Positions 13,538-16,116 of a DNA stretch of 64,000 nt are shown piece after piece (position 1 is the stretch's first letter; every line of letters starts with the position of its first letter). Under the pieces are notes generated by a model. The model was not told the DNA's origin. It saw only the letters and a list, made by a program, of their open reading frames with translations, and did not search any database. Origin of the DNA: Cricetibacter osteomyelitidis (lineage in GTDB: Bacteria > Pseudomonadota > Gammaproteobacteria > Enterobacterales > Pasteurellaceae). The position numbers and the translations under genes were made by a program. The stretch is from positions 1-64,000 of the forward strand of contig NZ_SLYB01000001.1 in assembly GCF_004340985.1 (NCBI RefSeq), written 5' to 3'.

Positions 13538-14002
13538 TTACTGAACGGTGACTCTTTTGGGTTTCATTTGGTGGATAATGCTTGTCACCGTGCCGATAAT
13601 CGGCAATATTTTCCAATTACGGGTTTTGATATTCGCCGCTTTATAATCCAGTGCCATAAAAACGTATTCGCCGTTTTGTTGAGCAAAAAACTCGTAAATT
13701 TGAAATTGTTCGTTTTCTTCCAATACGACTAAATCACCGACACTAAGCTGTTCGTTTTTTTCAATTACCAACATATCACCTTGTTCGATTCCCCAAGCGA
13801 TCATATTCGGATTATTGACTTGAATAAAACAAGTCTGTTGCGGACGTTTTATACAATATAAATTGAGATCAAGTTTATATTTTGCTACGCCTTTTTTATT
13901 TTTATTGCTTGTGTATTGGTGACGATCATCATAAAAAGGTAGCGGATGATAAGAAAAATAATGGTGAGAATCTGCATTTTGTATGGTATTTAAACGGTTC
14001 AT
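13538..14002 (-). CDS. UmuD/LexA-like S24-domain protein lacking the Ser-Lys catalytic dyad
   Basis: The region from about residue 44 (LDLNLYCIKRP) to the end aligns with E. coli UmuD: LDLN, then a FIQVNNPNMIAWGIEQGDM segment matching the UmuD stretch that contains GDSMID. The serine position is Asn66 and the lysine position is Tyr103 (FQIYEFF against FTVKKLQ). Self-cleavage is therefore not expected. The 43-residue N-terminus has no recognisable helix-turn-helix. Length is 154 aa (UmuD 139). No umuC lies nearby; the neighbours are convergent dnaE and the divergent glycosyltransferase. A textbook LexA box sits in its promoter, so DNA-damage induction is likely. Its role is unknown; binding to polymerase or the clamp, as UmuD does, is only a guess. 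Confidence 0.75.
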   Translation of the reverse strand: MNRLNTIQNADSHHYFSYHPLPFYDDRHQYTSNKNKKGVAKYKLDLNLYCIKRPQQTCFIQVNNPNMIAWGIEQGDMLVIEKNEQLSVGDLVVLEENEQFQIYEFFAQQNGEYVFMALDYKAANIKTRNWKILPIIGTVTSIIHQMKPKRVTVQ

Positions 14003-14060
14003 CGTATTTTCCTTAAGGTTAATTAGTGATTAAATTTTCATGCTGATTTTTATACAGGTA

Positions 14061-14090
14061 AATATACTGGTATTACATACAGTTTGTCAA
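14061..14090 (-). promoter_or_regulatory. SOS promoter: LexA box within the -35/-10 spacer
   Basis: Read on the minus strand, TTGACA (14090-14085), an 18-bp spacer and TATATT (14066-14061) form a strong core promoter. The spacer contains CTGTATGTAATACCAG (14082-14067), an exact CTG-N10-CAG LexA operator. A second, imperfect CTG-N9-CAG lies at 14057-14043. The start codon is about 50 bp downstream and has AAGGA in front of it. Confidence 0.8.
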
Positions 14091-14241: not shown

Positions 14242-16116
14242 ATGCAAATATCTATTGGAAAAAAGCAACCTAAACAAAATTATTCAGCCAGTTTAATTAA
14301 TTTTGAACGGGCGGTATCCAATCAGGATCGTCAAGTGGCCGGCCGAGAATTAGTTGCTATTTTGCAATCGCTGGAAGTCAATGGCGGAAGCATTCAACAA
14401 ATTGAAATGGATATTCCGAGAAGCCTGACTTTAGTGGCACATGAAGACGAGCGTTATTTCTGTACTCGACTGGCGGTTGCGGTATCAGATTTTTTCCGCA
14501 TGCCGGAACTGGTATTTTCCGATGCGGGAGCTATTGATTTATTGACTTATCAACGCAGGTTGGCTCAAGTATTTGCTTCTTCGCCTTTTCTGAATGCGGA
14601 TCATGTTTTGCGTAGTTTTGATATTGATTTAAGTGACCATCAATCTCAAGTTGCTGTGAAAAAAGGCTTGTTACAAAAATTTTGTATCCTGTATTTTCCT
14701 GAATCTAACATACCGTTAAATTTTGAATTGTTATGGCAATTAAGTCCCGAACTTTGCATTTCACTTTGTTTTGCATTGCAATCGGATCGCTTTATCGGTA
14801 CAACGGCAGCATTTCGGAAACGTCATATTTTATTAAAGTGGTTACCGACCAAATTATCGAAGATTAAAAACCTTAATGGCTTGAACGAGCGTATTTTACA
14901 CGATGTCTATATGCGTTGCAGTTATGATACGGCAGCTGAAAAACATCGTATCAAGGAAGGAATTAACGGCATAATTCGTCGTCATTTATTAGAAAACGGC
15001 TGGCAGGATCGTAATATCGCACCTATTGGTTATATCAAAGGAAAGCCGATTATGATGGTTTATTTGGAGCATTTTCATGCTACACATTCTATTTTTCGTA
15101 CTCATTCAACCTCTTTACGTGCTGCATGGGAGCAGTTTTTTTTAATCGGTTTTGGCGGAAGTACAGTGGATCAACAAGGGAAGGCGGTGTTTGATATTTT
15201 TTATCCGTTGGACACGATTCCTTTACCAAACAATAAGTTAAAACAAATTCGGCATTTTTGTGAGCAATATAAACCGGCGGTTTTCTATATGCCGAGTATA
15301 GGAATGGATTTAACATCGGTTTTTTTAAGTAACACTCGTTTGGCACCAATACAGGCGGTAGCACTAGGACATCCGGCCACTACGCACTCTCCGTTTATTG
15401 ATTATGTTATTGTTGAAGATGACTACGTTGGTTCGGAACAATGTTTTAGCGAATCGTTAATTCGATTGCCGAAAGATGCGTTACCTTATATTCCTTCGGC
15501 CAATGCCCCGAAAACAGTTGAATATTGTTTAAGAGAGGAGCCGGAAATGGTACGGATTGGTATCGCCAGTCATATTATGAAATTAAATCCTCAGTTTTTG
15601 GAGGCCTGCCGTCAGATTCGTGATAAAGCAAAAGTGAAAATCCACTTTCATTTTGCACTAGGCGCTTCCAAAGGGATTGTTCATATTTATGTCGAACGTT
15701 TTTTGAAATCGTATTTAGGAAACGATGTCACGGCACATTCTCATTTACCTTATCAACAATATTTAGATGTGCTGCATCAATGCGATATGTTGATTAATCC
15801 ATTTCCCTTTGGTAATACTAACGGCATTATTGATATGGTTACATTAGGTTTGGTGGGAATATGTAAAACCGGTCCGGAAGTACACGAACACATTGACGAA
15901 GGTTTATTTAAACGCTTAGGTTTACCGGATTGGTTAATTGCAAGTAGTGTAGAAGAATATATTGAGCGTGCTATTCGTTTAGCTGAAAATCATAAAGAAC
16001 GCTTAATATTACGTCGTCATATTATTGAAAATAATGGGCTACAAACATTATTTACCGGCGATCCCAGCCCAATGGGTAAAGTCTTACTGGAAAAAGTGAA
16101 GGCTTTAGGTATGTAA
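14242..16116 (+). CDS. HMW1C-like cytoplasmic N-glycosyltransferase (GT41)
   Basis: Family members transfer glucose (or galactose) from a UDP-sugar to Asn in N-X-S/T sequons of surface proteins in the cytoplasm, without a lipid carrier. The length (624 aa) and many blocks match Actinobacillus pleuropneumoniae NGT as I recall it: FCTRLA near residue 75, SPELCISLCFALQSDRFIGT near 175, GHPATTHSPFIDYVIVEDDYVGSE, NPFPFGNTNGIIDMVTLGLVG and EVHEHIDEGLFKRLGLP in the C-terminal GT-B half. No HMW1A/HMW1B adhesin pair and no second glucosyltransferase is adjacent, so its target must lie elsewhere. It is preceded by AAGGAAAG and ends at an uptake-signal terminator. Confidence 0.92.
   Translation: MQISIGKKQPKQNYSASLINFERAVSNQDRQVAGRELVAILQSLEVNGGSIQQIEMDIPRSLTLVAHEDERYFCTRLAVAVSDFFRMPELVFSDAGAIDLLTYQRRLAQVFASSPFLNADHVLRSFDIDLSDHQSQVAVKKGLLQKFCILYFPESNIPLNFELLWQLSPELCISLCFALQSDRFIGTTAAFRKRHILLKWLPTKLSKIKNLNGLNERILHDVYMRCSYDTAAEKHRIKEGINGIIRRHLLENGWQDRNIAPIGYIKGKPIMMVYLEHFHATHSIFRTHSTSLRAAWEQFFLIGFGGSTVDQQGKAVFDIFYPLDTIPLPNNKLKQIRHFCEQYKPAVFYMPSIGMDLTSVFLSNTRLAPIQAVALGHPATTHSPFIDYVIVEDDYVGSEQCFSESLIRLPKDALPYIPSANAPKTVEYCLREEPEMVRIGIASHIMKLNPQFLEACRQIRDKAKVKIHFHFALGASKGIVHIYVERFLKSYLGNDVTAHSHLPYQQYLDVLHQCDMLINPFPFGNTNGIIDMVTLGLVGICKTGPEVHEHIDEGLFKRLGLPDWLIASSVEEYIERAIRLAENHKERLILRRHIIENNGLQTLFTGDPSPMGKVLLEKVKALGM

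Follow-up and report, generated by a model that had tools for sequence, protein, structure and literature searches.

Sequence comparison lends good support to the view that a short open reading frame of Cricetibacter osteomyelitidis encodes a catalytically dead and SOS-controlled paralogue of UmuD, the autoproteolytic subunit of DNA polymerase V (pol V), and this protein is best explained as a distinct, vertically inherited UmuD paralogue which forms a clade of its own. With regard to its function, an even chance is given to the proposal that it acts as an SOS-induced, permanently uncleaved UmuD which manages the replisome and is not a pol V subunit. The DNA analyzed in the current work (named “the window”) is a stretch of 64,000 nucleotides, representing positions 1-64,000 of the forward strand of contig NZ_SLYB01000001.1 (assembly GCF_004340985.1). 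The features discussed below, all located on its minus strand, are as follows, with the basis of each assignment in brackets.

13538..14002, minus strand: open reading frame of 154 codons with ATG start, encoding the putatively dead UmuD paralogue (S24 fold; orthologues, dN/dS)
13694..13696, minus strand: codon of Tyr103, aligned with Lys97, the general base of UmuD (UmuD and family alignments)
13805..13807, minus strand: codon of Asn66, aligned with Ser60, the nucleophile of UmuD (UmuD and family alignments)
13925..13954, minus strand: motif SYHPLPFYDD of the N-terminal arm (residues 17-26), the counterpart of TFPLFSD (14-20) in the docking/clamp segment of E. coli UmuD (conservation)
14010..14014, minus strand: Shine-Dalgarno-like AAGGA, 7 nt before the ATG (sequence)
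14043..14057, minus strand: imperfect second LexA-like box (CTG-N9-CAG), positioned where relatives have theirs (sequence)
14061..14066, minus strand: -10 element TATATT (sequence)
14067..14082, minus strand: LexA box CTGTATGTAATACCAG, an exact CTG-N10-CAG (sequence; conserved in relatives)
14085..14090, minus strand: -35 element TTGACA (sequence)

Fold and family assignment

The 154-residue protein matches the Pfam profile Peptidase_S24 (PF00717) with 53.3 bits (cut-off 23.3), and an AF2 model of the monomer displays a UmuD/LexA-type core with a pLDDT of >90, profile and predicted structure thus agreeing on the Peptidase_S24 superfamily fold. Among proteins of solved structure, UmuD and UmuD’ of E. 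coli come closest, and the best fold matches in the PDB are UmuD’ (1ay9), UmuD (8gmt) and the C-terminal domains of LexA, with a Z of about 10. The initial annotation had described the protein as a UmuD homologue and had proposed a structure prediction against UmuD as a check; the S24 profile, the UmuD alignment and the UmuD’/UmuD/LexA C-domain fold returned by the AF2 model all agree with that description.

At the level of individual families, the UmuD model (NF007621 / PRK10276) is matched with 57 bits, below its cut-off of 110, and the HumD model with 22.9 bits versus a cut-off of 120. The LexA model yields 23.3 bits versus a cut-off of 110.95, this match being confined to the C-terminal domain, and the N-terminal winged helix of LexA is absent from the protein. 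Considering that the best model match, “DNA polymerase V autoproteolytic subunit”, falls below its cut-off, any annotation by that match would be misleading.

Loss of the catalytic dyad and of the cleavage site

In an alignment of the core which requires no gaps between the two positions, Ser60 of UmuD (GDSM) is found opposite Asn66 (NPNM) and Lys97 (FTVK) opposite Tyr103 (FQIY). Of 140 Pasteurellaceae genomes, 138, representing 41 of 43 genera, carry an orthologue; 136 of these carriers possess a comparable intact copy, and one pseudogene (G008) and one shortened copy (G015) also occur. In the first family alignment, the Ser column is occupied by N (118), D (12) or H (7) and the Lys column by Y (135) or F (4). 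The corresponding pairs per gene are NY (115), DY (10), HY (7), DF (2), NF (2), AY (1) and SK (2), the last being the second, canonical umuD genes of two genomes (G069 and G133). Both catalytic residues are missing in all 136 intact Pasteurellaceae copies, with N, D, H or A at the Ser position and Y or F at the Lys position.

The loss extends to the substrate part of the molecule: the [AC]G cleavage dipeptide is found in the arm-to-core region of none of the 136 members (a chance VG occurs in three), and the scissile [AC]GFPSPA segment is gone in all of them. Canonical UmuD proteins sampled from the order and the class retain the Ser, the Lys and the Gly of the cleavage site in 100% of cases each. 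Since nucleophile, general base and site are missing throughout the family and are intact in canonical UmuD, the loss is a triple one, old and uniform. A Ser or Lys located elsewhere in the pocket, which the initial annotation had named as evidence that would speak against its reading, was looked for and is ruled out, the globular domain being devoid of a conserved Ser in the family alignment. The placement of Asn66 and Tyr103 at the Ser and Lys positions is thus upheld, as is the conservation of their replacement across Pasteurellaceae (NY being the commonest pair). The suggestion that the protein is “non-cleavable” is supported by the lost dyad and strengthened by the lost scissile segment, as far as can be judged from sequence. 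The dyad expected of an active peptidase is absent.

The residues W70, E81 and Y103 are near-invariant in the dead clade and unlike those of canonical UmuD; this near-fixation argues for a remodelled pocket and against decay or drift.

LexA-controlled promoter

The minus-strand promoter, of consensus type, reads TTGACA-AACTGTATGTAATACCAG-TATATT, in which the LexA box fills the spacer, confirming an earlier reading of an exact box between the -35 and -10 elements. A lone box is weak evidence, since a search of the window for LexA boxes returned 183 two-mismatch matches versus 163 expected. An exact CTG-N10-CAG is nevertheless located upstream of 130 of the 136 orthologues, versus 1.2 expected from shuffled sequences (maximum 4), by which a chance occurrence is ruled out; the corresponding proportion in control 200-bp windows from the same loci is 1.5%. 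Two boxes, 24-28 bp apart, occur in 78 of the relatives. The SOS (LexA) control proposed by the initial annotation, together with the conservation of the box that it had suggested to verify, is therefore well borne out at the level of the promoters.

Distribution, selection and evolutionary history

The gene is missing from two complete Pasteurellaceae genomes; considering these and the single pseudogene, it is not indispensable. Its absence is not tied to a loss of LexA, which is present in nine of nine genomes checked. The dN/dS ratio has a median of 0.07 and a maximum of 0.17 (119 pairs), and the paralogue is under strong purifying selection. In the genome with the shortened copy mentioned above (strain HK_961, G015; loci L100/L216), both dinB and the paralogue are without their 5’ parts, perhaps as the result of one rearrangement.

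In an unrooted PMSF tree, 44 dead proteins are set apart from 35 canonical ones, each group with support of 100/99. The sole kin found outside Pasteurellaceae are the proteins of two genomes (G148 and G172), both members of a single small family within this order, which fall between the dead and canonical groups. In these proteins the Lys position is taken by Tyr and the Ser position by Ser or Gly, a canonical cleavage site is missing, and LexA boxes are located directly upstream of their genes; G148 in addition possesses a canonical umuD adjoining a umuC-sized open reading frame. The simplest reading of this tree, unrooted as it is, would be that a paralogue distinct from pol V lost the Lys and the cleavage site first and the Ser afterwards. 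A phage or plasmid origin is rejected: no phage match was obtained, and those listed from plasmids, with 29-33% identity, represent canonical umuD, in some cases accompanied by umuC. The Pasteurellaceae protein is also encoded in a record labelled Pseudomonas stutzeri NCTC11607 (L157); as its 1.9-Mb contig matches G128 of the Pasteurellaceae, the organism name looks wrong.

The gene neighbourhood was compared in named relatives, 80 of 105 being kept from a separate scan, which include Haemophilus, Aggregatibacter, Actinobacillus, Pasteurella, Mannheimia, Avibacterium, Rodentibacter, Gallibacterium and others. The convergent orientation to dnaE noted in the initial annotation is correct for the window, but is seen in none of the 80 named relatives, so that dnaE proximity carries no weight and this synteny is discarded as a functional clue. 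A gene for an SstT-like transporter adjoins the paralogue in 59 of the 80. In the window, the divergent neighbour (14242-16116), situated between the paralogue and gyrA, encodes an HMW1C-like cytoplasmic N-glycosyltransferase (HMW1C_N plus HMW1 domain 2).

Translesion polymerases

The single Y-family polymerase gene of the Cricetibacter genome is dinB, a search for Y-family genes having detected no umuC there. The absence of umuC, originally remarked for the vicinity of the gene, and of pol V, originally proposed for the genus, holds genome-wide and across Pasteurellaceae with the exception of G069 and G133. Only in these two genomes is a second Y-family gene present, each time beside its own canonical umuD and in addition to the dead paralogue; these canonical umuD and Y-family genes (L142 and L143, respectively) were probably acquired. 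Six near-complete Pasteurellaceae genomes (G061, G062, G063, G070, G087 and G102), three of them close relatives within the H. influenzae group, contain no Y-family polymerase and have retained an intact paralogue, such absence counts for dinB and umuC being dependent on the assemblies.

Cricetibacter dinB (L144) is itself preceded, about 60-80 bp upstream, by a one-mismatch LexA-like box, CTGTTTATTTATATAG, and Aggregatibacter dinB by exact LexA boxes about 75 bp upstream. In Aggregatibacter loci (L161 and others), dinB is located about 2.3 kb from the paralogue, on the other strand and with two genes between.

Proposed role

The N-terminal arm has the consensus SYxPxPF[YF]xD, in which Y18, P20 and P22 are invariant and S17 and D26 are conserved to at least 90% (59 members); P22 is also conserved in canonical UmuD, and the places matching UmuD L17 and F18 are occupied in the dead family by hydrophobic or aromatic residues. 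Two AF2 models contain a short strand in this motif (residues 23-25 and 18-20, respectively; confidence there about 60), which differs from the consensus clamp motif. In UmuD, T14, L17 and F18 keep the arm docked on the globular domain, and the T14A/L17A/F18A exchange weakens alpha binding (PMC5342242). The non-cleavable UmuD S60A binds the C-terminal fragment of alpha with a Kd of 0.7 uM versus 3.8 for UmuD’, and the alpha-beta contact is disrupted by full-length UmuD and S60A, but not by UmuD’ or an arm-truncated form (PMC5342242). By analogy with S60A, and in view of the conserved arm motif, the term “polymerase-binding factor” used in the initial annotation would fit.

According to the proposed mechanism, the paralogue would be made only when LexA is cleaved following DNA damage and, being deprived of nucleophile, general base and scissile site, would never become UmuD’. 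It would instead stay in the full-length “arms-down” state, presumably as a dimer with docked arm, a state which in E. coli binds the alpha subunit of DNA polymerase III and the beta clamp and separates them. During the SOS response it may thereby slow or release the replicative polymerase and restrain error-prone synthesis, and the mutagenic pol V phase would not follow. Dimerization, arm docking, alpha/beta binding and the checkpoint effect are what we infer for the paralogue. Considering that an uncleavable, SOS-made protein would remain in the state that weakens the alpha-beta contact, the role of replisome manager is favoured, its chances being judged balanced. Retention in the six Y-family-free genomes fits a replisome target or a RecA target, and the partner could equally be RecA or DinB. 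A broader scenario, which we regard as possible yet doubtful, is that the SOS response of Pasteurellaceae has replaced the pol V switch by an inducible, irreversible replisome brake, the paralogue representing a checkpoint-only clade that predates divergence of the family and is able to work without a translesion polymerase.

Among the alternatives, it is conceivable though unlikely that the paralogue serves DinB as a fidelity partner: as an uncleaved, UmuD-like dimer it would, together with RecA, keep DinB in a low-frameshift mode, in line with the binding of DinB by full-length UmuD, which suppresses -1 frameshifts (PMC3901139). However, DinB as an obligatory partner is weakened, and as sole partner made less likely, by the six Y-family-free genomes that keep the gene (three of them closely related), and two dinB-bearing genomes are without the paralogue. 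Somewhat less likely again is a role on the RecA/LexA side, in which the dead S24 domain would fill that groove of the RecA filament which LexA and UmuD use, or pair with LexA, tuning SOS shut-off or recombination. The S24 fold binds RecA filaments (the fold matches of the AF2 model include the solved complexes of RecA with UmuD and with LexA), UmuD’C inhibits RecA-dependent recombination (PMC3901139), and RecA and LexA are conserved partners, LexA occurring in all nine genomes checked; the conservation of the arm motif would nevertheless need another reason.

That the paralogue regulates transcription is improbable: UmuDAb of Acinetobacter is a precedent for the regulation of SOS genes by a UmuD-like protein (review PMC9578287; PMC7273328), but no DNA-binding domain is predicted, S24 alone scores, the N-terminal 40 residues form a low-confidence arm, and LexA, the sole other S24 protein of the Cricetibacter genome, is present. 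Very improbable is cleavage, whether by a still active protease or in trans, be it by a second S24 protein or by a housekeeping protease; UmuD heterodimers are cut in trans (PMC5342242), but nearly all genomes are without a canonical UmuD partner, and the dyad, any conserved globular Ser and the scissile segment are gone throughout. A decaying umuD relic, to which the lost catalysis and umuC, the pseudogene and the shortened copy might point, is contradicted by presence in 138 of 140 genomes, a dN/dS of about 0.07, the LexA-box promoter of 130 of 136 orthologues and the fixed residues of the dead pocket, and can be virtually dismissed.

In E. coli, one and the same protein has the checkpoint role when full-length and becomes the mutagenic form once cut, so that this role is difficult to disentangle from pol V. 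Pasteurellaceae would represent a natural fixation of the uncut form; most of their genomes are devoid of pol V and a few of every Y-family polymerase, and a single-gene deletion in Haemophilus could directly reveal what uncleaved UmuD does.

Comparison with known systems

A passage in PMC6957337 places impA among the SOS genes of H. influenzae, citing Sweetman et al. 2005. This gene is very probably the orthologue of the dead paralogue, as each genome of the H. influenzae group has a single match and ImpA is a UmuD-type name, and, given that identity, it would already be known that the gene is induced in the SOS response of H. influenzae. In this group the orthologue, which we take to be HI1546, lies between genes taken for sstT (transporter) and aroG (DAHP synthase). 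No report of the catalytic death of the Pasteurellaceae UmuD family, or of its status as a distinct clade, was found in the open-access literature.

With UmuD, the paralogue shares the S24 fold, the DLN...T core, a LexA-controlled promoter and an arm motif with an invariant Pro and aromatic/hydrophobic residues, but it is without the Ser-Lys dyad, the C/A-Gly cleavage site and a umuC partner, and belongs to its own clade. HumD of phage P1 is likewise UmuD-like and encoded without umuC, but resembles the short UmuD’ form, whereas the paralogue keeps the long arm. The closest functional analogue may be E. coli UmuD S60A, a laboratory non-cleavable mutant with a full-length arm and no cleavage, from which the paralogue differs in being natural and family-fixed, with the general base and scissile site also lost and the pocket seemingly rebuilt (W70, E81, Y103).
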